From Phycisphaeraceae bacterium (GTDB taxonomy: Bacteria > Planctomycetota > Phycisphaerae > Phycisphaerales > Phycisphaeraceae), in NCBI GenBank assembly GCA_020851465.1, contig JADZCR010000006.1, positions 248,001 through 312,000 of the forward strand: a stretch of 64,000 bases of DNA, given 5' to 3'. The notes below the pieces were generated by a model, which had not been told where the DNA came from, searched no databases, and saw only the letters and a program-made list of their open reading frames with translations. Made by a program: the position numbers and the translations under genes. This document shows, piece after piece, positions 8,494 through 49,137 of this stretch. Positions within the stretch are counted from its first letter, which is position 1. The number at the start of each line of letters is the position of its first letter.

Positions 8494-8505
8494 TTCAGTA
8501 TTGCG

Positions 8506-9432
8506 TCATCGTTTGGCCGCCAACCGCAGCCGGTGGCTCAGGTAATTTCCAAGGAATAGATCAAAGGGCTGGCTGGTATCCGCTAGCGCATAGCCCACGC
8601 CGCGCGACTGACAGCCGGAGCGCATGGAGTCGATAAACTCGTTGAGTCGGCGGAGGTATTCATTCCGCATCGAGCTGGCGTTGGCGGAGACCAGCCGCGT
8701 GGTTTCGATGTCCTCGATCTGCGTAACGTCGTCGAATGGGAAAGTCAGCTCCGCACGGTCGAGAACATGAAACACCACGACCTCGTGCTTCTTATGCCGC
8801 AGATGGCTGATTGATTCGAGCAGCTTGCCGACTTCGCCGACGGAAAAGAGATCGCTGAGCACGACGACCAGCGCGCGACGTTTCATCGTCTCCGCCAGTT
8901 CATTGAAAGTCGTTGTCAGGTCGGTCTGACCGACGGGTTGAGCCTTGCCCAGCTCCTCGAGTACGACGCGCAGGTGGTTGCGTCCCTGTCGGGGCGGGAT
9001 ATGCGTGGCGACTTTCTGATCGTAGGTAATCAGGCCGAACGCATCATGCTGGCTCTGCATGAGGTAAGCCAGGCTCGCAGCGCAGTAGCAGGCGTACTCA
9101 AACTTGGTGATCGCTCCGTCGTGGCGGTAACTCATCGAAGCCGACGAATCGAGCAGGAGGTAGCAGCGGAGATTGGTCTGTTCCTCGTACTGCTTGACGT
9201 AGAGCTTGTCGCGCTTGCCCAGAATCTTCCAGTCGAGGTGACGCGGATCGACGCCCGGCGTGTATTCACGATGCTCGGCGAACTCGATGGAGTAGCCCCG
9301 GTGCGGCGAGCGGTGCTGGCCGGCGTAGAGTCCCTCGACGACCAGACGCGCCGCGATGCCGAGGTTTTTCAGCTTCGCCAGAGCCGCGGGGTCGAGGTAG
9401 CGGGTCGCGGATTGCGCGGAAGTTTCCACCAT
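8506..9432 (-). CDS. DUF58 domain protein (cluster A)
   Basis: 308 residues, the usual length for the family. The family signature is clear: a Gly/His-rich stretch before the sequence EYTPGVDPRHLDWKILGKRDKLYVKQYEEQ (about residues 57-84; only its core is needed for recognition), followed directly by a VWA-like MIDAS motif DSSAS at 95-99. There are no membrane segments, so it is probably cytoplasmic or peripheral. DUF58 genes nearly always follow a MoxR ATPase gene; here a sialidase-like gene separates the two. Its paralogue in cluster B is at 24067-24981. Confidence 0.93.
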   Translation of the reverse strand: MVETSAQSATRYLDPAALAKLKNLGIAARLVVEGLYAGQHRSPHRGYSIEFAEHREYTPGVDPRHLDWKILGKRDKLYVKQYEEQTNLRCYLLLDSSASMSYRHDGAITKFEYACYCAASLAYLMQSQHDAFGLITYDQKVATHIPPRQGRNHLRVVLEELGKAQPVGQTDLTTTFNELAETMKRRALVVVLSDLFSVGEVGKLLESISHLRHKKHEVVVFHVLDRAELTFPFDDVTQIEDIETTRLVSANASSMRNEYLRRLNEFIDSMRSGCQSRGVGYALADTSQPFDLFLGNYLSHRLRLAAKR

Positions 9433-9456
9433 GAGTGCGGTAGTCTCGTTTGAGGG

Positions 9457-10641
9457 TTATCCGGGCAGCGGGACATAGCAGGCGTGCAGGAGGCCGGTCG
9501 CCTGACTGGCCGGAACACGAAGCCGCGCGTCGGCACTGACAAGCCGACCCGCATCTACATCCTGCTCACGAAAGACCGCCATCAACACCTGCCGTTCAGC
9601 CGTCGGCGAGTGGATGTCTCCCCGGTTGAAGTCGTAGATCACGAAAATCCGTCCGTCGTCAGCCTCGATGCCGTCGGGATAGGAGACCATCAACCGCTCA
9701 TCGAGGAGCAAGCCTCCGTCCCACGTCATGCCTTCATCATCGGAGAGCCACGCGGTCAGAAAACTGCGTCCGCGCAAGCCGGAATCCACTGCGCGCTTTC
9801 GATCATGATTTATCAGGAGCAGCCGCCCTGACCGCAGGCGGCGGATAAAAATGCGGCTGCCCGGCCCCTCGATCCTGCTGGGTTGACCGAGGCTCCACGT
9901 TCTGCCGCCGTCAGCGGAAAAGCTCTCGCCGATGCCATATCGGGTGCGCACCAGCATCCAGAGTTGACCATCGCGCCTTTCGACGATCATGTGTTCGTCG
10001 CAGGTTCGATCAGGGACATCCGCGGAGCCGATGATCTGAAAAGTCCGGCCTTGATCGTCACTGGCGAGGACGTTGGAAAATCGTTCGGGATCAAGCTCAC
10101 GATGCCATTCACGGCCGACCCCCGACCACACCGATGTCGGCAGCAGCCACCGGCCGCTGGATAGCACGGTGGGCTTGTTCATCATGATGCCGTTGGCGAT
10201 GCGTCGCGGCGCAGACCACGTGGGCTTCTCCGCGTCGGGGTTTGCGGTATGCGTTTCCCAAACACCCGCCCGGCCATCGAAATGCTTTTTCTCGTTGCAC
10301 TGAGACCAGAAAAGCCAGAGCGTACCGTTCGGATCGCTCCACAGGCACGAATCAAACTCCCGCTCAGCCGTCGAGGCTGGGGCGATGACCATGAACGGAT
10401 CGATCCACGTTTTCCCGTCGTCATCGCTGACGCCGACGACGACATGATTCCCCGCGCCCTCGCCGCCCTGACCGGTGTACCACGTCGCCCACAGTCGGCC
10501 GCGTGTGGTTCGTTCGATGCCGGGAATGCCCTGCCACGTGCGAGCAGCGGGGCCATATTCGCCGCCGGGGCGGACGACTAGTCGAGGAGACCGTTCGACA
10601 ATATGCGCTGCCAATGACGAATTGGAATTAAGTGTTGTCAT
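9457..10641 (-). CDS. BNR/Asp-box sialidase-like protein
   Basis: 394 residues with four Asp-box motifs (S-x-D-x-G-x-T-W/F type) at about 72-79, 190, 238 and 299, which mark a six-bladed beta-propeller of the exo-alpha-sialidase/BNR family. An Arg-x-Ile-Pro-like element at about 35-45 (TWQGIPGIERT) resembles the family's substrate-binding start. No signal peptide or membrane segment is seen, so the product is probably cytoplasmic, unusual for a true sialidase. The gene sits between the MoxR and DUF58 genes of cluster A and has no counterpart in cluster B, so it looks like an insertion into an operon. Substrate is unknown; it may be another glycoside hydrolase or only a binding propeller. Confidence 0.85.
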   Translation of the reverse strand: MTTLNSNSSLAAHIVERSPRLVVRPGGEYGPAARTWQGIPGIERTTRGRLWATWYTGQGGEGAGNHVVVGVSDDDGKTWIDPFMVIAPASTAEREFDSCLWSDPNGTLWLFWSQCNEKKHFDGRAGVWETHTANPDAEKPTWSAPRRIANGIMMNKPTVLSSGRWLLPTSVWSGVGREWHRELDPERFSNVLASDDQGRTFQIIGSADVPDRTCDEHMIVERRDGQLWMLVRTRYGIGESFSADGGRTWSLGQPSRIEGPGSRIFIRRLRSGRLLLINHDRKRAVDSGLRGRSFLTAWLSDDEGMTWDGGLLLDERLMVSYPDGIEADDGRIFVIYDFNRGDIHSPTAERQVLMAVFREQDVDAGRLVSADARLRVPASQATGLLHACYVPLPG

Positions 10642-10677
10642 GTTGATGCGAACCGATGCACGGCCGTATGCGAGGGA

Positions 10678-11754
10678 TCAGGCCGTAGCGTTGAGCTTGT
10701 CGTATTCCTCCGGCGTCGGTTCCGTGACGTTTTCGAGCAATCGCTTGATCAGGTTGTCGCTGTCCACGCCTTCAGCCTCGGCGTGGAAATTGACGATCAT
10801 GCGGTGTCGCAGCACCAGCGGGGCAACCTGACGCACATGCTCGACCGTCACGTTGTATTGCCCAGCCAGTGCGGCGCGGGCCTTTGCCCCCAGCACGAGG
10901 TACTGGATGGCACGCGGGCCGACGCCCCAACTGACAAACTCCCGTATAAACGGCGGGGCGATTTCGTCGGCGGGGCGCGTCGAGCGGCCGAGTTTCACGC
11001 AATACATCGCGACGTGATCGCTCACGGGAACCTGTCGCACCATTTTCTGCAGTGTCAAAATCTCCGGACCACGCAGGACTTTTTCGATCTGGATCGCCAG
11101 ATCGCTGGTCGTCGCCTTGGCGATGGCCAGTTCCTCCGCCGGCGTCGGATAGCCCACCTTGAGCAGGAACATGAAACGATCGAGCTGCGCTTCGGGCAGT
11201 GGGTAGGTGCCTTCCTGCTCGATTGGGTTTTGTGTCGCCAGAACGAAAAACGGCTTGGGCAATTCATACGTCTGCCCGCCGCTGGTGACCTGCTGCTCCT
11301 GCATCGCCTGGAGCAGTGCCGCCTGAGTTTTCGGAGGGGTGCGGTTGATTTCATCCGCCAGCAGGATGTTGGCGAACACCGGGCCGTTGACAAACTTGAA
11401 ACTACGCTGGCCGCTGGTTGGATCCTGCTGGATGACCTCGGTGCCGGTGATGTCGGCGGGCATCAGATCGGGGGTGAACTGAATGCGGTTGAATTGAAGG
11501 TCGATCGCACGGGCGATGGTCTGCACCATCAGCGTCTTGGCCAGACCGGGGACGCCGACCATCAGGCAGTGTCCCCGCGCGAAAATCGCGGTGAGCAGAT
11601 CGTCGATGATCCGTTCCTGTCCGATGATGACGCGGCTGATCTGCGCTTTGAGTGCCTGCCGGGCCTCGCCCAGCCGCGCCAGCGCAGCAGGGTCGATTTC
11701 AGCAGCGGGCGCGTCTTTGAGGCCAAGCGGTCGAGAGGTGCCGAGTTTGGTCAT
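10678..11754 (-). CDS. MoxR-family AAA+ ATPase (cluster A)
   Basis: 358 residues from the ATG at 11754. An upstream in-frame TTG at 11781 is possible, but GGAG lies 8 bases before the ATG. Walker A is GVPGLAKT at 67-74, Walker B is ILLADEI around 130-136, and the sensor-1 region contains [20 protein letters not shown]. This is the full MoxR pattern (AAA_3 plus C-terminal lid). MoxR proteins are ATP-driven chaperones thought to mature or regulate VWA-domain proteins, and this one heads a cluster of them. Its amino acid and nucleotide similarity to the cluster B MoxR (25361-26398) is high around the sensor region, indicating paralogy. Confidence 0.95.
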   Translation of the reverse strand: MTKLGTSRPLGLKDAPAAEIDPAALARLGEARQALKAQISRVIIGQERIIDDLLTAIFARGHCLMVGVPGLAKTLMVQTIARAIDLQFNRIQFTPDLMPADITGTEVIQQDPTSGQRSFKFVNGPVFANILLADEINRTPPKTQAALLQAMQEQQVTSGGQTYELPKPFFVLATQNPIEQEGTYPLPEAQLDRFMFLLKVGYPTPAEELAIAKATTSDLAIQIEKVLRGPEILTLQKMVRQVPVSDHVAMYCVKLGRSTRPADEIAPPFIREFVSWGVGPRAIQYLVLGAKARAALAGQYNVTVEHVRQVAPLVLRHRMIVNFHAEAEGVDSDNLIKRLLENVTEPTPEEYDKLNATA

Positions 11755-11903
11755 GGGTTTCTCCGAAGCGTGGTCAATCAATCTGCGGATTCTTTCGTAG
11801 TTTCGTACCAGTGGTCAGGCGGATCGCTGCTGACTTTGCGTGCATAACGGGAAGGAATTGCATGACGAGCTGACACGTCTTTGCGTGGGTGATCCGCGAC
11901 ACT

Positions 11904-13430
11904 TCAACGTCTCGCGGCGTAGGTGAGGATGTTCAATGCGATCTTGCGGGCAGACTCGGCGTCATACGCATTCGCGTAGGGATCATGCACGCCCTTGAGC
12001 ATCGCCAGCGTGTCGTTTTTTGAGTAAACGATGGCGGCTCGTCCATCCAGCGACACCATCTCTAGCTCCGCGTCACGCTGCGCCAGCGTGCCTGCGTCAC
12101 GGGCGGATTTAACTTCATAGAGCGACTTGAAAAGCTCGTGATCAGCGGGCACCGGTTCGAGTTTCTGATTCGGAAAGATCCGCGCGATCGTCGCTCTCGC
12201 TTCCTTGTCAAACTTGGCGAAGCCCGACGTGTTGTTGATGAAAAGAAAACCGCCTGCCTGAAGGTGGCGGCGAAGCGCAGCCACCTCGTCATCGGTCAAC
12301 TTCGGCTCATCCATGCCGGTCATGACGAGAATCGGCGTGTCGATGAGTTCCTCTACTTTGGCGTCCACGGGCTGGAGTTTGAACTCCATCGGAACACTCG
12401 TCTGCTGCGCCAGCAGACGGATGAGTTGCTGGAGACTGTTGGGGTCGGGGTTCCAGTCCCCCTGATGCTTGAGCAGCGCGATGGGCACCGCAGCGCGTTT
12501 TTGCGGCTGGTCGCCGACGACTTCGCGTGTGACGGCCTGTGCCTTGGCAAAGCGCCGTTGCGCCGCTGTGTAGGAGACGATGTTGATTCCCATGCGCAGC
12601 GCGTCATTGGGCATCATCGCCATCGTGGGTTCGGGTTTGGCGTTTCCGGCTCGCGGGGCAGGCGGCGCGTAGAACTCATCCCAGCCGCAGGTCATGTCAT
12701 AGGGTGAGAGGATCACCGCGGTACGAGCGTTGAAGTTCATCCCCAGCAGTGCAGGCGGGCCTTCGATCCGGGTGTGGATGCCCTGCGCGATCGTGAAGTA
12801 GTGGACGTTTTGATAGTTGTAGTAGCCGTGAAGGATCGGGTGATCCAACTGGAGGATTTCGAGTTTCCGCTGAGGAAACATCCTGAGAACTTCCGCTTCA
12901 AACGACTTGGTGAAGGCCGGACTTCCCAGAGCCGCGTCACCCAGCAGCGTGCCGCCTTCCTGGATGTAATCAACCAGAGCCTCGCGCTGCTCAGCGGTGA
13001 ACTCGAAAGACTCGTAGCCCGTGATATACAACAAGGGCAATTCGCAGCGCTTGCCCTTTTTGTACATCGCAACGATTTCGTCGATACCGATGGGCTGCCA
13101 GCCGTACCAGGCATCGAGCTGATAGCGCACGTGACGGAGGAGGTTGTCCACGTCGCCGGGATTGGGCATGTAATCCTGAGTCGTGCCGTACTTGAGCTTG
13201 CCGATGAAAAGCGGCGGCGCAGGCTCAGCCTTGGGCTCGCTGCGGCGCATCGGTGTGGCGGGCAGCGGCAGCGGCGCGGTCGCCTCGCCGGAGGTCTGCC
13301 GCTGCGGATTCTGTCGCTGCGGCGGGCCGATCGTACCCAGTTGCCGATCCGCCAGCGCCGTGAGAGCGGCGCAGAGAATCAACCAAATAAACGCAATGCC
13401 GCGAGCGAGATTTATCGACCGGCTGCTCAT
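11904..13430 (-). CDS. Exported protein with two DUF4159 domains
   Basis: 508 residues with an N-terminal signal segment (about 10-28), a Pro/Gln-rich linker, and then two tandem DUF4159-like domains (about 74-290 and 312-507). Each half has the same order: an entry strand (IGKLKYGTTQDYMPNP versus IALLKHQGDWNPDP), a hydrophobic strand ending in a TG turn (LLYITGYE versus ILVMTGMDE), a Gly-Gly-hydrophobic segment (EGGTLLGDAA versus AGGFLFINNT), and HPI/HEL near the end. The fold is GATase-like and the function is unknown. A strong AAGGAG lies 6 bases before the ATG, inside the end of the preceding gene. It is the last gene of cluster B. Confidence 0.87.
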   Translation of the reverse strand: MSSRSINLARGIAFIWLILCAALTALADRQLGTIGPPQRQNPQRQTSGEATAPLPLPATPMRRSEPKAEPAPPLFIGKLKYGTTQDYMPNPGDVDNLLRHVRYQLDAWYGWQPIGIDEIVAMYKKGKRCELPLLYITGYESFEFTAEQREALVDYIQEGGTLLGDAALGSPAFTKSFEAEVLRMFPQRKLEILQLDHPILHGYYNYQNVHYFTIAQGIHTRIEGPPALLGMNFNARTAVILSPYDMTCGWDEFYAPPAPRAGNAKPEPTMAMMPNDALRMGINIVSYTAAQRRFAKAQAVTREVVGDQPQKRAAVPIALLKHQGDWNPDPNSLQQLIRLLAQQTSVPMEFKLQPVDAKVEELIDTPILVMTGMDEPKLTDDEVAALRRHLQAGGFLFINNTSGFAKFDKEARATIARIFPNQKLEPVPADHELFKSLYEVKSARDAGTLAQRDAELEMVSLDGRAAIVYSKNDTLAMLKGVHDPYANAYDAESARKIALNILTYAARR

Positions 13431-13433
13431 GCG

Positions 13434-14330
13434 CTACTCCTTCGTTTCAAGATCGGGCGGGGCTGTCGGCGGCGACTTACCTTTGGGCTTGAGAACGATT
13501 TCAGTCGTCTGGCTGCCGTCTGGATTCACCGCGTGAACCCCCGCCGTCGGTACCGGCAGGATCATTTTATCCAGAGCGATGTCCGGCTTTTCCTCGGTCA
13601 AAGCAATTCCGCCCAGATGACGCGCATACACGACCTTCTTCGCCTCATACTGCGGCGGCTTCAACCGTTCTCGCACCAGCGCGTAACTCGGTCGCTCCTG
13701 CACGGGAACCCACGTTACTTCGTCGGGATCTTCCCAACTCCAGCGATTCACCGACCAGATCCACGTCGTCGTGTTAAGTCCCACGCTCTCGGTGAACGGG
13801 CGGCGGCGCAGCGTCGTGATGAGCACGACTGCGTGCTGGATGTTGCCCTGAACGTCGAGCACCACGACCTCATCCGGGAAGCCGCAGACGATATTCCCCG
13901 ACATTTTCTCAAGAATCGTCGCCCGCGACTCATCGCTCAGCGGTTGCTCCTGTTCGTAGTCGCTTCGCGGCACATCCGCGTCCCAGCCCTCAATCAGGCC
14001 GTCCTGAGTCTCGAAGCGCAGGTTGTAGCGACCCGGAGTCAGATCGTTGATGACGACGCGCTCGCCGTCGATCCTGCCCTCAAACACCTTGGCGTATTGC
14101 CCGGTCGGGGTGTTGTCCCAGCGGACGGCGTAAACCTTCCTGATCGGCTCTTTTGTTTCGATGGTCGCGGTGATGGAACCGGCGGACGCGGTCGCACAAA
14201 ACGCAAAAGCGCAGACACCCAGCACGATCCATGCTGCCCAAAAGTGTCGCAGGCGTATTTCGCGGTCGAGTCTTGAGCGTGCCACGTCGGGAACTCCTGC
14301 TGCGGGTGTGCCTCGGAAGCTGTCAGACAT
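13434..14330 (-). CDS. Small exported protein of unknown function (cluster B)
   Basis: 298 residues from the ATG at 14330. A GTG at 14285, preceded by GGAG, would give a shorter and cleaner signal peptide and may be the true start. After the hydrophobic segment (WIVLGVCAFAFC and ATASA cleavage-like site) comes a beta-rich region containing TPGRYNLRFETQDG, reminiscent of a carboxypeptidase-regulatory-like or transthyretin-like beta-sandwich, then a charged C-terminus ending in Pro/Lys/Thr-rich sequence. I do not recognise the family. It lies 3 bases upstream of the DUF4159 gene and 7 bases after the prenyltransferase-repeat gene, so it belongs to the same transcript and probably to the same envelope machinery. 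Confidence 0.8.
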   Translation of the reverse strand: MSDSFRGTPAAGVPDVARSRLDREIRLRHFWAAWIVLGVCAFAFCATASAGSITATIETKEPIRKVYAVRWDNTPTGQYAKVFEGRIDGERVVINDLTPGRYNLRFETQDGLIEGWDADVPRSDYEQEQPLSDESRATILEKMSGNIVCGFPDEVVVLDVQGNIQHAVVLITTLRRRPFTESVGLNTTTWIWSVNRWSWEDPDEVTWVPVQERPSYALVRERLKPPQYEAKKVVYARHLGGIALTEEKPDIALDKMILPVPTAGVHAVNPDGSQTTEIVLKPKGKSPPTAPPDLETKE

Positions 14331-14337
14331 TTCCAAG

Positions 14338-15411
14338 CTAACGCTGATACGCCGGCAGATAGTGCAGATACACCTCCAGACACATCGCTCCGACAGCGGT
14401 GGAGTAGCACTGCGCCGGGCCGTTGTAAGCCTGCTCCGCCTGTCCCGGCCAGCTGCCGTCCTCGGCCTGTGTCGTCAGCAGCGCGTCGCGGACCTTGGGA
14501 TGCCAGTCAGCCCAGTAGTCGCCGCCCGCCTGAAAGTGTGCCTGCATCGCGTAATAGTTGGCGTAGAAAAACCACGCCTGCCCCGGCGCGTAGGCAGCAC
14601 GGTTGGTCTTCATGTAGTCAAGCCCCTTGAGAGTCTTGGGGTCGTCCCATTGTCCCAGGAGTTGGAGACTGAGCGTTCCGCCGGCACTGGTGGCCGGACC
14701 TGCTGAAGGCGAGGCGTAACCAAACCCGCCCGCCGGTGCCGCCAGCATCTTGACGTACTTGATGGCGTTGTCGATCGTTGTCTGCGGCACTTCGAGTCGC
14801 GCATTTTGTGCCGACCGCAGCGCGACGATCTGCATGACCGTGACGCTCAAATCCGCATCTGCCGGTTGCGGGTTGTAACGCCAGCCGCCAGCGGCATTCT
14901 GGCTTTTGACGATCAGGTCCACCGCTTTCTGAATCTGCTTTCGCAGTGATGGAGAAGGAATGAAGCCATACGCTTCCGTCAACGCCAGCGTACACAGGCC
15001 GTGGTCGTACATCTGGACAGGGAAAAATCCGGTGTCGATCTGCACGGAAAGCAGATGCGTCACCGCGCGGTCCACCACATCCTTGTACGGGCCTCGCCCC
15101 GGCTCGTGGCCTCGACCGAGAAAGGCCAGCAGACAAAAGGCGTTGATCCCTTCACGATTCCCCGATGACGGCCAACTGCCATCGGGCTGCTGATGTTTCC
15201 GCAGGTACTCCAGAGCCTTGTCGATCGACGCTTCGACTCGCTCCATCTCGCGCGGGTCGGGCAGGGCGCCATCGGCATCGGCAGCGGGGGCTGCCCTCGA
15301 CGGCAAGGTCAGCAGCGCGACAACCACGCCCATCGTCACGGCTGCGATCACCGCTGCCGTCCGCCATTCGCGGTGCTTGCGATTTTTGTATGTCATGGAA
15401 CGTCTCATCAT
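14338..15411 (-). CDS. Exported prenyltransferase/squalene-oxidase-repeat protein
   Basis: 357 residues from the ATG at 15411, which overlaps the preceding gene's stop by 4 bases. A signal anchor spans about residues 18-38. At least three QW-type repeats (Q-x-x-D/A-G-S/G-W) occur near residues 73, 175 and 325, predicting an alpha/alpha toroid as in squalene-hopene cyclases and prenyltransferase beta subunits. The cyclase catalytic DxDD is not present; the nearest sequence is DADLS near residue 187. With an export signal and a VWA/DUF4159 context, a binding or structural role is more likely than terpene cyclisation. Confidence 0.87.
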   Translation of the reverse strand: MMRRSMTYKNRKHREWRTAAVIAAVTMGVVVALLTLPSRAAPAADADGALPDPREMERVEASIDKALEYLRKHQQPDGSWPSSGNREGINAFCLLAFLGRGHEPGRGPYKDVVDRAVTHLLSVQIDTGFFPVQMYDHGLCTLALTEAYGFIPSPSLRKQIQKAVDLIVKSQNAAGGWRYNPQPADADLSVTVMQIVALRSAQNARLEVPQTTIDNAIKYVKMLAAPAGGFGYASPSAGPATSAGGTLSLQLLGQWDDPKTLKGLDYMKTNRAAYAPGQAWFFYANYYAMQAHFQAGGDYWADWHPKVRDALLTTQAEDGSWPGQAEQAYNGPAQCYSTAVGAMCLEVYLHYLPAYQR

Positions 15412-17909
15412 GTCAGCCCCAGCAATCTCCGGACGCCGACGTCCGTGCAATAAAGTCCCACGAGCAGGATCAGCGTCAACCAGTTGTCCCAGATTTCCTG
15501 TTCATGCGACTGCGAGATGGTGATAGGTTTGCCCTGGATGACATCGGGGAGCTTGTCGATCCGGTCGAGTTCCAGCAGCCCGCCGCCGGTCGCGTCAGCC
15601 ATGGAACCCAGGAGATCGCGGTCCACGCTTGGCTTGCGCAGCTCGCGTCCTGAACCGGTGACCGCCACGCCGCCGGTGACTTCCTTGCCTCGTTGGTCCG
15701 TGTACGTCAGCCGATACGATCCGATTGTTTTGGGTTGCCACACCCCGCGAAAGTGACCAGTCTCAGCGGTCCGTGCGACCGTTGCCTGTTCCTGGCCTTG
15801 TCCGCTGGTGATCTGCACGATCACATCCGCGCGGTCGAGTGGTTTACCGTTGGCGTCCACAGCGTAAAGCTCGATGGCGACAGGATCACCCGGCTCGGCG
15901 CGGGAGGGTGAAACCTCCATCCAGCTTGAGTCTCCGCCGCGATCCTTGTTCCGTGCGACGTAGCGGATGGCCTGTCCCCAGAAGCGATAGAACAGATGGC
16001 TGCCGATGTTTCTGCGCCAGCGGTAGGTTGTGTCGTCACCGATGTAGAGCACACGACCACGACCGGCGTAGCGTTCGGCGATCAACGGGCGCGAAATGCC
16101 CGGCCCCTCAACCTTCGCCAGCACGGTCGCCGTCGGGCCAGCGTCTTCGGCGGCCGCCGCCCAGAAAAACTCGGGCATCCGGCTCCACACGTCGCGGTTC
16201 TGCGTGACGTTGTCGTAAAGCTGAAACACCGGATGGATCGCGCCGGTGGCGGTGACTTTCATGTGGAAGGGATCAAACGCCGGCGCGTCGATGCCCACCA
16301 GGATGTTGACGCTTGAACCATCCGTCAGCGAGGAGCCTGAGGCAGTGCCGGACGCATCGCCCTTGCCTCCGAACCGCACGGGCAGAATTCGCGCCAGCGG
16401 GCCATTCAGAAATCCGCGCGGCATGTGATGCGGGCCGGCCTGAACGATCAATCCCAGACCGTCCTCCTCGACCGCCTTGACGAGTTGCTCCTGTAATTTC
16501 ACGGGCAGGAGATTGCTGGAAATATCACCTAGCAGCACGGTGTTGTATTGCGCGAAGCCCGCTGCATCCTGCGGTAATTTTGCAACCTTGGGCATGTCGC
16601 CGGGCAGGACTCCGTAGCCGATGAGCTGGGCTTCCATGACAATCGTCGTGTCGAGGCCGTTATCGCGCCGCAGCGCATGATCGAGGAAGCGAAAGTCCCA
16701 TCGCGGATAACCTTCGAGATAGAGCAGTCGTTGCTTTTCCGTCTCGACGCGCAGCGAGATGGTCTGTTGGTTGTTGTCCTTGACCTGTTCTTCGGGCTGC
16801 GAGTCAATGGCGACGTTCAGCATCGTCGCGCCGGGTTCCTCAGCCGTGAAGGAGAGTTGAACTTGCTGCCGCTCCGCGCTGTTGAGCGTCAGCGGTTTGG
16901 TGTCGATGACTTTACCGTCGGCAGCGGTGAGCTTGACCTGCACCGATTTGCCGTTGAGACCGCTCGAATCGACGGTGGCGACGACCGCGATCGTATCCTT
17001 GCGGGCGACCTGTCGTGGCGCGAGCACATCCGCGAGGCTCACATCGACCAGCGCGGTGGATGAGCCGACGGGAATCGACCAGACAGGCGTACGCAGGGGC
17101 GGAGCGTTTTCATCATGTGATGCGAGATGCACGCTCGCGTCGTCAGCCGTGCCGCCCAGCCGTTCGATGACCGACATCGGATCAGGCCCGCTGGTCCAGC
17201 GTCCGTCGGAGATCACCACCAGCCCCGCGAGACGTCGGCCGACGGCTTCGTCAATCGCCTTGTCCATCGCGCCGCCCAGATCGGTCTCCTTGGCTTCGTC
17301 GGCACTCAAGGGTTTGGCGGGTTCGCCCGCCAGATCGCCGGAGCGGATCTGCCGCGCAGCACGATAGAGGCGAAGGTCGAAACGCTCCTTCAGCGGTTTG
17401 ATGACGGTTTGGCGGTTATGCGTCAACACCGCATCGAGGAGTTGAGCGCGGCTGTAGCCGTTGAGTTTTTTGCGGACTTCGGGTGACAGGGGGGTCGGCG
17501 GCTTGTCCTTTTGAGGCGGTGGAAGCAGGCCGGCCGCGACCGCCAGATGCGACATCTCCTCATCCGTCAATACGCCCAAGGGCAAGTCCATGCTCGCGGA
17601 CTCATCGAGCACGACGGCGAGTATCGGCTTCTGCGTCACCTCACGGGTCAACCGCAGCGACGGGCCGGCGAGGATGACGATGAGCACCAGCAGGATGCCG
17701 ACTCGACAAGCGGAGAGCAGCCAGCGTAACCCGGCAGAGACGTGCGGGAGATTGTTCCGTTGCCGTCGCACGATGAAAAAAGCGATGGGCACCAGCAAAG
17801 CGATCCCCACCCACAGGATCACCGGACGGGCCCAGATGAGCTGTGCCTGATCGATGGACGATCTGATGTCGTCGCTGATGCCCAGGGTTTGGAGAAGCCA
17901 CGAGAGCAC
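15408..17909 (-). CDS. Membrane VWA / GATase-like protein (cluster B)
   Basis: 833 residues, GTG start at 17909. Two membrane segments (about 29-47 and 63-81), then a VWA domain with intact MIDAS motif DESAS at 102-106, a GATase-like region starting near LLYLEGYPRWDFRFLD, a beta-rich domain, and a C-terminal membrane segment followed by GVRRLLGLT. It is the counterpart of the 777-residue protein at 3731-6064, with the same domain order. It follows the DUF4175-like gene by 1 base and overlaps the prenyltransferase-repeat gene. No amidotransferase triad is seen. GTG is chosen because no better-placed ATG precedes the first membrane helix. Confidence 0.88.
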   Translation of the reverse strand: MLSWLLQTLGISDDIRSSIDQAQLIWARPVILWVGIALLVPIAFFIVRRQRNNLPHVSAGLRWLLSACRVGILLVLIVILAGPSLRLTREVTQKPILAVVLDESASMDLPLGVLTDEEMSHLAVAAGLLPPPQKDKPPTPLSPEVRKKLNGYSRAQLLDAVLTHNRQTVIKPLKERFDLRLYRAARQIRSGDLAGEPAKPLSADEAKETDLGGAMDKAIDEAVGRRLAGLVVISDGRWTSGPDPMSVIERLGGTADDASVHLASHDENAPPLRTPVWSIPVGSSTALVDVSLADVLAPRQVARKDTIAVVATVDSSGLNGKSVQVKLTAADGKVIDTKPLTLNSAERQQVQLSFTAEEPGATMLNVAIDSQPEEQVKDNNQQTISLRVETEKQRLLYLEGYPRWDFRFLDHALRRDNGLDTTIVMEAQLIGYGVLPGDMPKVAKLPQDAAGFAQYNTVLLGDISSNLLPVKLQEQLVKAVEEDGLGLIVQAGPHHMPRGFLNGPLARILPVRFGGKGDASGTASGSSLTDGSSVNILVGIDAPAFDPFHMKVTATGAIHPVFQLYDNVTQNRDVWSRMPEFFWAAAAEDAGPTATVLAKVEGPGISRPLIAERYAGRGRVLYIGDDTTYRWRRNIGSHLFYRFWGQAIRYVARNKDRGGDSSWMEVSPSRAEPGDPVAIELYAVDANGKPLDRADVIVQITSGQGQEQATVARTAETGHFRGVWQPKTIGSYRLTYTDQRGKEVTGGVAVTGSGRELRKPSVDRDLLGSMADATGGGLLELDRIDKLPDVIQGKPITISQSHEQEIWDNWLTLILLVGLYCTDVGVRRLLGLT

Positions 17910-17910
17910 G

Positions 17911-20900
17911 CTATTTAACGTCCTTGCTGAGCTGGCGGTAGTAGGCGTCGATCAACCGTTGATACGCCTCAGGCCCTTTTTCCTGCATGCCTTGAATGAG
18001 CGGATCACGAACACGCGGCGGCAGGCGGTAGAGCGCGGCACCCTGGCCGTTCAACTCGATGCCCGAAAGATCGACGCTCATGATGTCACCCTGATAAAGC
18101 CCGCCCTGTCCCGTCGCGCCGGCTGCGCCGGAAGGCGGCACGGTGTAAGCTTGATTCGAGGGATTGTTCTTGTCGCTCTGACCCTGGCCGCCCATTTTTT
18201 TAGCCATGGCTGATGCGCGAGCTCGACTTGCCGCCGACATGGCGTTGCGCATGGCTTGCGAGGCCATCATCTCCCGCATCTGTGCTGCCATCGCGGAGCG
18301 TTCTTCCGGCGAGGCGTCAGCCATCTTCGCGAGCATGTCACGCATCTGCTGCGTGAGGCTGCCGGCTTTTTCGCCCTGTTTGGCCAACGCGCGTTCCTGA
18401 TCGCCAAGGTGCCGCTGCATTTCACGCTGGTGTTCCTGAAGCATCTGTCGCGGCGTCTGATTCTCAGAGTTGTCCGCTTCCACCGGCCGCTTATCACGAT
18501 CAGCGAAACGCTCGTCCTCCTCGGTCGTCCGGCCGGTCGGCAGCGCATCGACTTCCTTGTCCCACCAGTTCTTTTTTTCCTCCTCCTGTCGCGCCTTTTC
18601 CGCCGCTGCTTCCGCGGCTGCGGCGGCAGGGTCGGTTTTCGCATCGGGAGCTTTGGTCTTGTCTGGTGTGTCAGCTTCGGTCGGCCCGACCTCGCTCTTT
18701 TCCCCCGGCGGAGTCCAGGGCGCGGGCAGATCGTCGTCCGGCTCCTCCTGACCTGCCAACTCGTCACGCAGCAGGTCGCGCGCTTCCTTCAATGCTGCAA
18801 GAGCCTTGGCGTCGAGAGCCTTCTGATCCTGACTGACTTTGTTGAGCTGATTGCTGTCGGCAGTCTCGGTGGACTCCTCAAGCGCGGCCACTTGTTGCCT
18901 CAGGTCTTCCAGTTCCTGCCTCTGGGATTGCAGATCGGTGCCCAGGTCGGTCATCATCCGCGCGGCGCGATTTCCCTGCATCTGGGCGAGGATGTCGGCG
19001 ATCTGCTGCTGCACACCGGCGGCGTCCTCGCCGACCTTGGCACGAGCGGCCTGAAGCTCCGCCATCCGTTTCTGGAGTTGTTCCAGCTCGGCTTTCTGCT
19101 CGGCCGTCAGTTCCGCCAGATCACGCAGACGATCGAGTACCGCAGCGTCCATCGCCTTTTCGTCGCCGCCTTCCGCAGCCAGATCGCGGAGTTGTTTGGA
19201 AATCTCCGCCAATGCCGCTTGTTCCGCCGGAAGTGAAAACACGGATTTGGCTGCAGCCTCGGATGCCGCTGTCACCTGTTTGGCCAGATCGACTGCCTTA
19301 AACCGTTGCTCAATCAGCGCGGAGTCAAGCTCTGCCAGCTCCTTCTGCTGCTGCGGTGAAAACTTTTCAAATTGCTCTTTGAGATATTTCTGAATCTGCT
19401 CCGGTGTCATCTCCGAGCCGTCGGGATTGAGAGGCTTGACCAGCCGGCCTGCAGGTCGCGTCGTGGCGGGAAGCTGATCGAGGAGCGCCGCGGCTGACGC
19501 GGTGACCTTGTTCTGCGATTCGAGCAGCTTGGAAATATTCTCGAGCAGCGGCTTCATCGGATCATCGGCGCGCTGGAGATCAGGGGCCGCAGCCGATCCC
19601 TGAGCCGCCAACCCCAGCCGGAAAGCATCGCTGTAAGCGACCTGTTGTTTGCGATCCTTGACGACGAGGCGGTAATAGACCGACGCACCCGGAGTCAGAG
19701 CCATCAGCCTCGGATCGATCGACGAGAGAACGAGTTGATTCTGTGCCGGTGTGTCAAAGCGGGAAATCCATTTCGGATCGGCAAAGTTTTTGGTGTCTGT
19801 CCCGACCTGAAAGCCGACTTCGAGCACGCCGTAGTCGTCAAAGGCGCGGACCATCATCGGAATTGGTTCAACCTTGTCGATGGTGATGCTCGTGCCGGGT
19901 TTTTCGACGACGACAGCCGGCGGTTGATCCACGGTGCAGAGGATGGAGACCGGCTTCATCGCTGGATTTGCATCGTGACGCGCGTTGAAAAACTCGACGG
20001 CGTAGGAGCCATCCGTTTGTACGGGGATTTCTCCGCGCCATTCGCCGGACTTCGGATCATGCGCCATGGGGATCGTCGCGGTGGGTTCGAGAGTCTGCTT
20101 CTGAATCGTCTCGACTTTCCGTTGCAGGGCACCGACGCGATCGATCCACGCCCGGCCTTTGTCGATGCTGAACGTCACGCCGGAAAGCGGGAGCGGTACG
20201 GACAATGTGCCGCCCAGCAGTTTTGATCCTTCCGCTTCGAGGCGGACCCAGTTACCAAAAACGGGGATCGGCCCCATCTCGGTCGTGCGCGTGTTGGGCT
20301 TCGCGGGAGTTCCCGGCGGAGGCGGCGTGCCCCAGGCGAGTTCCAACGTCGTCGCGTTGTAAAGAAAGCTGACGGTGATCCGGTCGGGCTTATCCGCCGG
20401 ATCGAGATACGCATAAACAAAAATCGAGCCGTCGGTCGGCAGGGAAAACTTGTTGAGCCGTGTTGTGAAGCCGTAGGGCTTTCGATTCCACGCGAACGTG
20501 TGCGCCCGCGCGCCGCTGTAAACTTTCTCAGCAGTCCACTTCCAACTGCCGACCTCGGTTGCGTCGCCGGGCAGTTCATCGTCGAACCAGACCAGTTCGT
20601 TTTCGCGTGTTTCCTGCGTGGTGGTGGTTGAAGCCTTGTAGAGACGGATTTGACCGCTGACCGGATCACCGCCGACTTTCGCTTTCAATTCGATGGCCGA
20701 GCCGAGAGGCGCGCTGATCTGGGCGGTCTCGGTTTCGACGGGGCGGCGTTCGGTGATCGCCATGTAATCGGGCAGCCGGACCGCAGCCGCGAGCGATTCG
20801 ATCAGCGGTCGGCGGATCATGGTGATCTTGTGCGCGGAGGTCCATGTTCCGCCGCCTCGGATCACGTATTCATACGACGTGTCCACGGAGGAGATTTGGA

Positions 20901-44414: not shown

Positions 44415-46739
44415 TCAATCCTTGACGATCAACGGTACCAGGTTCGATGTCGGCAGTGTCAACGCACCGTGCGCCCGGGCTGCGGCGATGGCCAGAGGGC
44501 CTTGACTGGTCTTGACCAGATCGAGAAGTTTGCCCAGTGCAACTTCACCCAGATGGTTACCGATCTGCGTCGCCGACTCCGCCAGGGAGCCGAGCAGAGC
44601 CACGCGTATCTCTTCTGGTTGAGAGGCGTTGAGGGCGGTCTCCGCAATCGCCTGCTGAGCGTCAGGCGTCTGAAGGCGGGCGAGCACCTGAGCTGCGCCG
44701 GTCACCACTTCCGCCCGCTTGTCGGTCAGAGCGTCGATCAGCGAGCTTTGCGCGTCGGACGCCTTGAACAACGGCGAACCGCCGCGAGCGATTTCACCCA
44801 GGATGTTCAGTGCGGTCAGAGCGTAGTGCTTGCTCTCGTCGGGGGTCATGGGCGCACCGGCCGATTTCTTTGCCGTGTCGTCAATCGCTTTCTTGAGATT
44901 GTCGTTACCCGATGAACGCACGACGGTGGTGATCGAGCGGTCCTGATCGTAGCGGCGATTCAACTCAATCTGATCACCCGCCGAAACGATGGCAATCATC
45001 GGAGCGGACGAGAGCTTGTAGTTCTGCGACAGATCGCGACGCAGGCCTTCGATGCCGGCCAGATCCTGATCAGCGATGACCAGATCCACGCCCGGTCCGG
45101 AGTTGACCGTGTCGATTACCTCATTGAGCGTGGTGCCGCCGAAGGCTTGGAAACCCGCCTCTTTGAGGTCGGAGACGAGTTTGTTTGCAGCGTCGCGGTC
45201 GGAGGCGACGACCATCACCGATTGGCTGTCGCTCTGACGCAGTGCCTCAGCCAGCACGGGGACAACGCGATCGACGCCGGGAAATTCATTCTTCGGTTGG
45301 GCATTGGCCATCGTGAAAGCTGCCTCGAATCGCACGCGGCGATCGGGGAATGACAACGCCCGCAGCAGCGGTTGTACCGTGCCTTCACGGTTGATGAGTG
45401 CATCGGTTCCTGCCGTCTTACGCAGGGCGTCAATGGCGTCGAGAGCCAAAGCCGAGTCGTTGTCCTCCAGTGCGCGTGCCAGCACATCGTGTTGGCGCAG
45501 CGGGCCAGCCATCTCCAGGTAATACGCGGGCGGCCTCATATTCGGGTCGTAGCTGAGATCAACTGCCTTGGCCGGCAGGTGGTTTTCACGGCGGAGATTG
45601 GACGCCAGCCAGAGGCTCAAGGCCGCATCCATCTGCGGGTTGAGCGAAAGGGCGGTCTTGGCGGCACGCATGGCCAGCACGTCGTGGTAAATCTCGTTGG
45701 GAATCGGGATCGGCACCAGCCCCGCCAGCGTGTCATCGGTCCAGATCAGCGCCTTGCCTTCGCCCGCATCACTGGAGCCTTTGTCGCCGCGGCTGCCCGC
45801 AGCGTAGTGGTTTTGACCCAGTGTGAGGAAAAGTTCAGCGGCACTGACGTTTTCCGGCACATCAGCGGTCTTAGCAATCTGCTGAAATGCTGCGTCGATC
45901 GTTTTCTTCGCGCTTGGATCCGTCTTGGGATTTTCGCTGACTTCTTTCAGGTATGGCATCGCGCGGGGATAACCGATCTCCGCGAGAACCTGTGCGACCT
46001 GTCCCTGCGCGACCGGGCCGAGGCTCGGCAACGCGACCGATAACGGCTGAACGACCGAGCGACCCAGTGACACCATGGCTGTCAAAACGTACGGGTGCAG
46101 CCGGCTCTGTTTTTCATCGAGCAATGTCTGGAGCAGGGCGGGAGCGGCGTACTGACCGGCAGCCTTGAGACGGGCTGTCGCGTTGACGTTTGCACGCTCG
46201 CCTTCGGCGAGGCTCGTGATGTCCGCGATGATCCGTTTCGGGTCACGGGCGCGGCCGACACGGGCAGCCTGAATCTTGCCCGCGATCTGATCGCTCAATT
46301 CCCGCAGCGACTCAATCTTCGAGGCGATGATGAGCGTCTTTTCATAGTCGCGGTAATCGCCGCTCTCGACGACATCGAGGAGTTGCTGTTCATCCACCGC
46401 CTTGAGCAGCGCTTCGCCGGTGGCCTGCGCCAGATCGGGGCGTGCGATGCGGACGTAGTGATTGAAGTCGGACCAGAGAGCTTTAGGCTCGGTGGCGGTG
46501 TCACGCGAGCTGGCCTTAGCCGGCGGCGCCTCCTCGGCAGCGGGAGCCGCGTCCTTGTTGTCCGCCGCAGTTTCGGCGGGTGTTGCTTCCGGTGCAGCCT
46601 CGGCCGCTTCCGCAGGCATGGCTTCAGCCGGTTCGGCTGCGTTAAGGCCGGCGTCACCTTCATCGGCCCGTACTGGTCCAAAGAAGATCAAGGGCAGGGC
46701 CGTCGAAAGACTCAGTAACCAGCGTCGCGATAGGGGCAT
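44415..46739 (-). CDS. Exported HEAT-repeat protein with embedded receiver-like domain
   Basis: 774 residues from the ATG at 46739, with GGAG 8 bases upstream and a promoter at 46773-46801. A signal peptide (about 1-25) is followed by an Ala/Glu/Pro-rich linker (about 26-85), then helical HEAT-type repeats (about 150-290 and 400-500). Between residues about 507 and 620 lies a segment that looks like a response-regulator receiver fold: VMVVASDRD, DLVIADQDL and MIAIVSAGD as strands. The repeats continue after it (about 640-765). The phospho-acceptor position may be the Asp of VIADQDL, but an extracytoplasmic receiver would have no ATP-dependent kinase, so it is probably a binding module. Confidence 0.82.
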   Translation of the reverse strand: MPLSRRWLLSLSTALPLIFFGPVRADEGDAGLNAAEPAEAMPAEAAEAAPEATPAETAADNKDAAPAAEEAPPAKASSRDTATEPKALWSDFNHYVRIARPDLAQATGEALLKAVDEQQLLDVVESGDYRDYEKTLIIASKIESLRELSDQIAGKIQAARVGRARDPKRIIADITSLAEGERANVNATARLKAAGQYAAPALLQTLLDEKQSRLHPYVLTAMVSLGRSVVQPLSVALPSLGPVAQGQVAQVLAEIGYPRAMPYLKEVSENPKTDPSAKKTIDAAFQQIAKTADVPENVSAAELFLTLGQNHYAAGSRGDKGSSDAGEGKALIWTDDTLAGLVPIPIPNEIYHDVLAMRAAKTALSLNPQMDAALSLWLASNLRRENHLPAKAVDLSYDPNMRPPAYYLEMAGPLRQHDVLARALEDNDSALALDAIDALRKTAGTDALINREGTVQPLLRALSFPDRRVRFEAAFTMANAQPKNEFPGVDRVVPVLAEALRQSDSQSVMVVASDRDAANKLVSDLKEAGFQAFGGTTLNEVIDTVNSGPGVDLVIADQDLAGIEGLRRDLSQNYKLSSAPMIAIVSAGDQIELNRRYDQDRSITTVVRSSGNDNLKKAIDDTAKKSAGAPMTPDESKHYALTALNILGEIARGGSPLFKASDAQSSLIDALTDKRAEVVTGAAQVLARLQTPDAQQAIAETALNASQPEEIRVALLGSLAESATQIGNHLGEVALGKLLDLVKTSQGPLAIAAARAHGALTLPTSNLVPLIVKD

Positions 46740-46772
46740 GCGTGACTCCAAGGGGGGTGCCGCGTGATGTGA

Positions 46773-46969: not shown

Positions 46970-48106
46970 ATGGACGCACAGAAAATATCCCGTGCTGTTC
47001 CAGCCGGTCATCCTCGGCTCATTGCCGGCGTGGCGGCGATGGTCGTCGCACTGGTGATGGCTCTGGCACTGCTGTGGACCGCCCGGACAAAGCCGGGACC
47101 GTCCACGGCAAGCGCAGCAGCGCTGGCAGGCAAGCTGAACGCCGCGCAGCACGATGAGGAGATTCAACGGTTTATCCGGCGGGAGATCGACCCGCTGCTG
47201 ACCATATCCGCCGGACGTGATCGCGCTGCAGTGGATCGGGCAATCGACTCGCTACACGAGCGATTCCAGACTTTTCACGAGGGCGTTGATCCCTTTGTCG
47301 AGGACGTATCAAGCTGGACGACGCGGTTTGGTGTCGTCGGCAGAAAGACGCGGGATGTCTGGAACGGGCTGTGGGGAGATTCACAGCAGGCGGATTCGGT
47401 ACGCGACTACATCTCGGAAAAGTTCCAGGCGCAGGTGCTCTCAGAGGAGTCGCTGCGTGATGCGGTGACGCAGGTCATCGCCGATTTCCGCAGCGATCTG
47501 GCCGCCAATCGCAACGAGCTTTTTGTCGGGGTTAGTGCCGCCATCCGTGCCGGCGATGCGCCGATCGAGTTGCGCGAAATCGACATGGGACTTTTCGATC
47601 GTGAGTTGGACCGCCAGATCAAATCACTGGCGTCGGATGCCAGCGTCAACACGATCACATCCGGCATCGTGGTGTTTGCCTCCAGTGCAGCCGCTGAAGA
47701 AATCGCCCGCCGTGTGGCGTATCAACTCCTCGCCAGACTTGTGACCTACATGGCAGCCGATGCAGCCGTGACCAGCAGCGCCGGCGCAGGTGCGACCGTT
47801 ACCGGTGCTGCGCTGGGTGGCACCGGAGGCAGTACCGTCGGGCCGGTCGGGACAGCGATCGGTATTGGCGTGGGGCTTGCGGTAGGTGTGGCGGTTGACT
47901 GGTGGATGACCGCGCAATTCGAGGAAAAACTGGCCGGCGAGTGTCACGCGTATCTGGACCGCATGGAAAAAACGCTTATCGACGGACTCGAAGATGACGA
48001 CTCCCGCGGCGGATTGCGGCAGGCGCTGGCTCAATCGATCCAGCTCAATCAGCGCGTTCAACGTACTGCGATACTCGCGCGAGTAAACAAGGAGGCTGTG
48101 CAATGA
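46970..48106 (+). CDS. Membrane protein with glycine-rich helical hairpin (cassette gene 1)
   Basis: 378 residues from the ATG at 46970; a TTG at 46952 is possible and lies closer to a -10-like TACACT. One N-terminal membrane helix (about 18-38), a helical, charged middle, and a second hydrophobic part (about 215-310) that contains Ala-rich and Gly-rich stretches: SAGAGATVTGAALGGTGGS and PVGTAIGIGVGLAVGVAVDWW. Such Gly-zipper-like sequences often pack tightly in membranes or form pores. No family recognised. The gene ends in a 4-base overlap with the next, and a strong Shine-Dalgarno lies in its tail, so the two proteins are probably made in coupled fashion and act together. Confidence 0.78.
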   Translation: MDAQKISRAVPAGHPRLIAGVAAMVVALVMALALLWTARTKPGPSTASAAALAGKLNAAQHDEEIQRFIRREIDPLLTISAGRDRAAVDRAIDSLHERFQTFHEGVDPFVEDVSSWTTRFGVVGRKTRDVWNGLWGDSQQADSVRDYISEKFQAQVLSEESLRDAVTQVIADFRSDLAANRNELFVGVSAAIRAGDAPIELREIDMGLFDRELDRQIKSLASDASVNTITSGIVVFASSAAAEEIARRVAYQLLARLVTYMAADAAVTSSAGAGATVTGAALGGTGGSTVGPVGTAIGIGVGLAVGVAVDWWMTAQFEEKLAGECHAYLDRMEKTLIDGLEDDDSRGGLRQALAQSIQLNQRVQRTAILARVNKEAVQ

Positions 48107-49137
48107 ACAAACCATCGCAGCCGTTCGACACAGAAAAAATGGCAGCCACCACTCGCTCTATGTACGCGCAGAGTTCCAGTGCACGTCGAAGTCACCTCCC
48201 CATGCTCCGGTTATCTAATCCATCCGTCGTCGCAGTCGTTGCGGTGATTCTGCTGGGGATCATTTGCCGGCCGGTCCTGGCGCAGGGGTCGGCAGTGAAA
48301 GTCGCAGCACGCGAGCTGATTGAAGCCATCATCGAAAAGGGAGGCAAGGAAGCAGCGGAAGACATTGTGCGTTTCGGCGGTGAAGGGGCGGTGCGAGAAG
48401 TATTGGAAAAAGCCGTCAGGGAAGGGGGCGAGTCTCTCGCGGAGCGGGCGGTGCTGATCGCGCGGTCGCAGGGAGTCGATGCCCTGCGTGTGATCGACCG
48501 TGCGCCGGCAAGGTGGGTCAGCGTGCTGGAGGAAATTCCTAAAGATGCGCTTCGCCCTGCAATCCTCGCAGCGCGACGCGAGCCGGAGTTGATGACGCGG
48601 CTTGTTACGACCTACGGCAAAGAAGCTGCGGAGGTCGCAGCCCGTCATCCCGGTATCGGCACCAAACTCGTCGATCAATTGGGCAAGGACGGAATTGAGC
48701 TGGGCATGAGGCTCAGCGACGATCAAGCCATGATCCTCGCACGTCACAGCGACGATATCGCAAAGCTCGTGCCGACTCAGCGTTCCGAGATACTGGCCAA
48801 GATTTCGCGCTCGCCTCGCGCGGTCCTTGAGTTTCTCGAACACCATCCGAAGGTGCTCGCCACGGCTGCGGGCGTCGGTGTCGTGCTGGCGGTTAAGGAT
48901 CAGGTTCTGGGGCCTGCGGGTGAAGTGACGACGTTGCCCGATGGCACCGTCGTCACGCCGGCACCGGGTATGTTTGAGCGTTTCGCCGACCGCGCAGCGG
49001 AGCGATTTCATCAGCCGATCTACGCCATCTTTGCCGTCATCGCATTGCTCATTTTCGCATGGGGTGCTGTTCAGGTATGGCATGTGTGGCGCGTCAAGCG
49101 GATCAAACAAGCATCGCTGCTTCAGCGTCGATCATGA
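48103..49137 (+). CDS. Membrane-anchored helical repeat protein (cassette gene 2)
   Basis: 344 residues, ATG at 48103 with AAGGAGG 8 bases upstream. A signal or anchor helix (about 45-62) ends near PVLAQG, then comes an almost wholly helical region (about 65-260) with irregular repeats of about 18 residues carrying small charged turns such as EVAARHPGIGTKLV, MILARHSDDIAKLV and LEHHPKVLATAA. A membrane helix near 307-326 is followed by a basic tail. It may be a solenoid in the periplasm joined to the membrane at both ends. No family recognised; partner of the preceding gene. Confidence 0.78.
   Translation: MNKPSQPFDTEKMAATTRSMYAQSSSARRSHLPMLRLSNPSVVAVVAVILLGIICRPVLAQGSAVKVAARELIEAIIEKGGKEAAEDIVRFGGEGAVREVLEKAVREGGESLAERAVLIARSQGVDALRVIDRAPARWVSVLEEIPKDALRPAILAARREPELMTRLVTTYGKEAAEVAARHPGIGTKLVDQLGKDGIELGMRLSDDQAMILARHSDDIAKLVPTQRSEILAKISRSPRAVLEFLEHHPKVLATAAGVGVVLAVKDQVLGPAGEVTTLPDGTVVTPAPGMFERFADRAAERFHQPIYAIFAVIALLIFAWGAVQVWHVWRVKRIKQASLLQRRS

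Follow-up and report, generated by a model that had tools for sequence, protein, structure and literature searches.

A paired two-gene membrane cassette of Planctomycetota encodes a dynamin-trunk-like protein and a predicted alpha-solenoid partner

Introduction

What defines dynamins is membrane work powered by GTP, and planctomycetes form a phylum with unusual envelopes. In the window, the stretch of 64,000 nucleotides from a Phycisphaeraceae bacterium that was analysed here, an earlier note had pointed to a two-gene membrane cassette without likeness to any known family. Here, we ask whether the two genes are a real pair, what kind of proteins they encode and what these proteins may do at the envelope.

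Results and Discussion

Both genes of the cassette are present on the + strand and each encodes membrane segments. Gene 1 (P0001, 378 aa) occupies positions 46970..48106 and gene 2 (P0002, 344 aa) positions 48103..49137. They share the 4-base overlap that had been described, an ATGA at 48103..48106 (+ strand) in which the stop codon of gene 1 meets the start codon of gene 2. The strong ribosome-binding site attributed to the cassette belongs to gene 2, which is preceded by a Shine-Dalgarno AAGGAGG (48089..48095, + strand) at a spacing of 7 nt to the ATG; none is visible in the sequence upstream of gene 1, and a consensus search of the + strand returned neither promoter nor terminator. The start at 48103 places ∼41 residues ahead of the hydrophobic segment of gene 2, and 48202 is a possible alternative start. 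The pair is, as noted earlier, divergent from a HEAT gene on the − strand (44415-46751), whose product combines a HEAT-repeat protein with a weak, degenerate match to a response-regulator receiver. This gene is probably unrelated to the pair since it was not found beside the other pairs inspected.

The association of the two genes extends well beyond the window. In 41 of the 45 loci compared (the window and 44 others), both were found next to each other on the same strand, although these are not 41 independent events since the set includes near-duplicates (L014/L015, L125/L126), several loci lack one end and most were located via gene 2. In the remaining four (L058, L059, L124 and L136, the last of which ends at a contig edge), the two genes were not both detected; in L142, L127 and L128, they stand in the opposite order. 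Since over 40 loci conserve the two genes together, they are more than chance open reading frames. They have also co-evolved: the distances in their trees correlate (r = 0.73, 31 loci) at a level reached by 0 of 5000 permutations, a value to which shared descent contributes. Finally, the reverse search from gene 1 gave no confident match without an adjacent gene 2. The co-occurrence that the earlier note had proposed as a check is thus what we observed, and we conclude that this is a real functional pair, with a well-supported pairing and architecture. Separately, L014 and L015 (G121) are near-identical copies of a recombinase plus the pair that both break off within gene 2 where their contig stops, probably reflecting an assembly break at a repeat.

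Within the sampled Planctomycetota, the distribution of the pair is patchy. Single-sequence searches of 294 genomes of the phylum detected gene 2 in seven and gene 1 in three. With profiles, gene 1 was recovered from 16 genomes out of 392 (two of the matches are weak and partial), and among 146 genomes belonging to the order of G274, 28 gave a gene 2 match. The same kinds of search found no pair in the other genomes sampled from the family and order to which the window belongs. Scanning contigs with an alignment of conserved motifs yielded six loci, five of them assigned to Planctomycetota, Planctomycetaceae or Pirellula; a pattern scan with one sequence yielded none. No relatives were found on plasmids by tblastn, nor on viral contigs.

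Neither protein could be placed by family searches. Pfam and NCBIfam gave nothing above curated cut-offs, no PHROGs family was reached (gene 1 showed only a weak tape-measure match), PADLOC returned no full-length match (gene 1 matched LeoBC in part, and the window's gene 2 matched nothing), and no type IV secretion (T4SS) family scored above cut-off for either protein. Literature searches on Zac, planctomycete elements and GTPase-less dynamins turned up no account of the pair. Judged by these searches, it belongs to no known family, in agreement with the earlier note.

The architecture of gene 1 is more telling. Its AF2 model, built from 36 sequences, is all-helical (pLDDT 80.8, pTM 0.74). 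From the N-terminus, it displays a transmembrane helix at residues 17-35 (47018..47074, + strand; hydropathy 2.87; AF2 helix 15-39), which takes the position of the GTPase domain of dynamin-like proteins (DLPs), then a helical trunk at residues 48-269 (47111..47776, + strand) that starts with a 57-residue helix (48-104), a glycine-rich hydrophobic segment at residues 270-311 (47777..47902, + strand), and return helices of the trunk at residues 316-377 (47915..48100, + strand; AF2 helices 316-338 and 349-377). The glycine-rich stretch (27% Gly over 50 residues) is poorly ordered in the model, with low pLDDT at 270-289, and is mostly missing from two divergent members (L019 and L051). It had been described as a membrane hairpin or glycine zipper; the glycine-rich element itself stands, but it aligns with the DLP paddle and is better read as the putative membrane-binding paddle of a dynamin-type trunk. 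The body of the protein is predicted to be extracytoplasmic. By charge, the N-terminus faces inward in 23 of 33 members; in the window, the helix is flanked by +2 before and +3 after, which leaves its orientation undecided on this basis.

Several comparisons bear on the nature of this trunk. The PADLOC LeoBC dynamin model matches 11 of 36 gene 1 members (best E-value 6.2e-8; 3.1e-4 in the window), over the part that lies behind the GTPase. With hhalign, gene 1 aligns with planctomycete DLPs at a probability of 82.7, which reaches 88.9 when the GTPase is trimmed and sparse columns are dropped, and the alignment is collinear across trunk and paddle. Its score of 50.9 compares with a maximum of 38.1 over 50 local shuffles per window size, 24.5 for the reversed profile and at most 15.7 in 60 full shuffles, and gene 2 aligned with the same DLPs as a control gives a probability below 1. 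The halves of gene 1 taken alone score weakly (20-32 each), so the dynamin-like signal is spread along the protein; against a broader DLP alignment (A8), the probability is just 53-61%. In the window's own genome, a separate protein (L179, G000:C13:1560-2945) matches the LeoBC model with its GTPase part included (E-value 2.5e-15).

Fold comparison points in the same direction with less force. The top matches to the gene 1 model are largely trunks of the dynamin family: BDLP (Z 9.7, rmsd 4.9, 243 residues), the MxA/MxB stalks (Z ∼9), LeoA (Z 8.5, rmsd 7.4, 210 residues) and CjDLP (Z 8.3, rmsd 8.1, 239 residues). However, a designed bundle ranks first (Z 10.6), so Z values of 8-10 between helical bundles are unsafe and do not decide kinship by fold alone, and Foldseek against the PDB and viral models gave nothing at E < 0.001. 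An alternative is a structural scaffold of the inner membrane, unrelated to dynamins, in which long helices and a helical-repeat partner shape or brace the planctomycete envelope and the likeness to dynamins is convergent. Helical bundles match many folds and gene 1 also has its tape-measure-like match, but composition-preserving shuffles stay below both the LeoBC and the profile-profile signals, and we regard such a scaffold as rather unlikely. Homology between the trunk of gene 1 and that of DLPs is supported by the profile comparisons, and a resemblance to a dynamin trunk is likely.

What gene 1 does not share with DLPs is their motor. The P-loop/Walker A motif G-x4-GK[ST] occurs in none of the 36 gene 1 members versus 12 of 13 DLPs, and Pfam detects no dynamin GTPase family in gene 1. 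Without Walker A, the protein is by definition not a dynamin, hence our term dynamin-trunk-like. Like the bacterial DLPs (Nostoc BDLP, LeoA/LeoBC and the CjDLP pair), it combines a long helical trunk with a putative glycine-rich hydrophobic paddle and is encoded in an operonic pair; LeoA itself is periplasmic and has a glycine-rich paddle (PMC4159319). In contrast to them, it has an N-terminal membrane anchor instead of the GTPase domain, and its partner is an alpha-solenoid rather than a second dynamin. With respect to the dynamin (Leo) defence models of PADLOC, the trunk part of LeoBC is matched, whereas the GTPase part is missing and a defence neighbourhood is not consistent.

The partner protein is also built of helices. 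Gene 2 begins with a hydrophobic, signal-peptide-like segment at residues 42-60 that ends in VLA|Q (48226..48282, + strand), followed by an alpha-helical repeat solenoid at residues 64-262 (48292..48888, + strand), predicted to be extracytoplasmic, and by a C-terminal transmembrane helix at residues 305-323 (49015..49071, + strand) with a basic tail of net charge +6. The AF2 model shows a solenoid of short helices and a single long C-terminal helix (pLDDT 82.0, pTM 0.58); its fold matches are mainly designed helical repeats and TALE/MTERF-like solenoids (Z up to 7), and neither gene 2 nor its 36 aligned members match a HEAT/ARM Pfam profile. Most members share the signal-peptide-like start and the basic tail; charge places the C-terminus inside in 33 of 34. 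A helical-repeat body between two membrane anchors had been proposed; the repeat and the C-terminal helix hold, while the first anchor is more likely a signal peptide. The gene 2 profile also found long Brocadiales proteins with YGDD repeats, which were set aside; the one inspected had no gene 1 neighbour. A protein of group f48, taken for Brocadiales (L062, G334, 4246-6033), carries YGDD[AV] repeats in tandem together with membrane helices at its C-terminus and resembles the body of gene 2.

Some features of both proteins recall membrane-active toxins. Ten gene 2 members match Pfam Bacteriocin_IIi (best E-value 1.4e-5), three of them with 17-21.5 bits, below the 25-bit cut-off, and the window's gene 2 protein gives no match. 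The likeness to aureocin/lacticin Q bacteriocins is confined to a 24-residue motif (KYGxxAxxxxWxNKG), a single short element, sub-threshold in these three members, within a far larger anchored protein. Gene 1 weakly recalls alpha-pore-forming toxins (ClyA, AhlB and SmhB) in its elongated helical bundle and putative hydrophobic tip, and AhlB and SmhB are multi-component as the pair is; however, the fold match is weaker (Z 5-6, below the DLPs) and the pair has membrane anchors, N-terminal in gene 1 and C-terminal in gene 2. On these grounds, the pair might act in defence or exclusion or as a permeabilising effector, the paddle of gene 1 and amphipathic repeats in gene 2 opening or disrupting the inner membrane on a signal. 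The genomic context partly agrees: in L054 (G274:C109, 187-3650), gene 1, gene 2, cas2 and cas1 are consecutive on one strand; in L057 (G361, 7950-18039), the pair lies ∼133 bp before ZacABC, with a transposase-like gene between ZacB and ZacC; in L015, it is near a probable type I restriction-modification locus; and some pairs adjoin recombinases. Yet only ∼4-5 stand-alone loci are, by inspection, near defence genes, other stand-alone pairs sit among housekeeping genes, and in the f98 genomes the chromosomal pair has conserved neighbours. An effector role appears unlikely. We also discarded defence islands in general as the principal explanation, given that many stand-alone pairs are flanked by ordinary genes.

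More broadly, the pair occurs in three main settings, which are probable integrative elements, chromosomal loci with ordinary genes and the few loci beside defence genes. In trees, the window's pair falls within the branch of stand-alone copies, close to L057, L142, L013 and the f71 loci. On the elements, about ten loci place the pair beside genes for ParB and/or a coupling protein (T4CP; PF02534 or TraG-D_C): both accompany it in G105 (two copies), G405, G396, G502, G480 (two copies) and G307, a T4CP in G393 and ParB in G402. The T4CPs are confirmed by Pfam in seven element-type loci and, among the elements read far enough, a TrwC relaxase in G502 and G480. VirB4-type ATPases (two families) are absent from eight element genomes and from the window's genome. 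This branch hence shares adjacent ParB, T4CP and TrwC genes with conjugation modules, but VirB4 is missing from its genomes and neither protein scores above cut-off against any T4SS component.

Such a context could mean that the element-borne pair helps the coupling protein and the relaxase in passing DNA across the envelope or joins mating cells, substituting for a type IV secretion channel, the stand-alone copies being domesticated. Against this, no T4CP was found in the window's genome or in most genomes with stand-alone pairs, and no relaxase is visible in the vicinity of the first copy in G105. An element of related type (L189, G419, 7352-15817) carries ParB, a 141-aa membrane protein, a T4CP and a relaxase-like gene but not the pair, and a relaxase and T4CP without VirB4 would also fit an ordinary element that borrows a channel. 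We therefore hold a transfer module to be quite improbable. More speculative still is a motor-less dynamin module, made of the membrane-anchored trunk and paddle with the solenoid partner, that would serve as a minimal device for envelope passage or cell junction on integrative elements with a coupling protein and a relaxase and without a type IV secretion ATPase, and that would be domesticated elsewhere. A role of the pair in conjugation, exclusion or pore formation may nevertheless exist, a pore being, along with stress sensing, what the earlier note had tentatively suggested.

The reading that we prefer, with a probability of roughly 0.4, is that the two proteins make up a GTP-independent envelope complex that binds, tethers or remodels membranes. 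Gene 1 would be a GTPase-less relative, or a structural mimic, of a bacterial DLP. Its N-terminal helix would anchor it in the inner membrane with the long helical trunk outside the cytoplasm, a topology supported by the predictions above, and its paddle would insert either in that membrane or in the one facing it across the periplasm. Gene 2 would be exported by its signal peptide, expose its alpha-solenoid outside the cytoplasm and remain anchored by its C-terminal helix, with the basic tail in the cytoplasm. We infer that the two proteins associate physically, gene 2 binding gene 1 and organising or gating it, and that, acting jointly and with no need for GTP, they would tether or curve membranes or disturb them locally.

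Conclusions

To conclude, a protein in which the trunk and paddle are kept and the GTPase is swapped for a membrane anchor would reveal what the membrane half of a dynamin does alone. That some copies of the pair neighbour genes for a coupling protein and a relaxase, in genomes lacking VirB4, bears on how DNA is moved by planctomycete elements. Besides, the pair offers a new, testable module of the planctomycete envelope.
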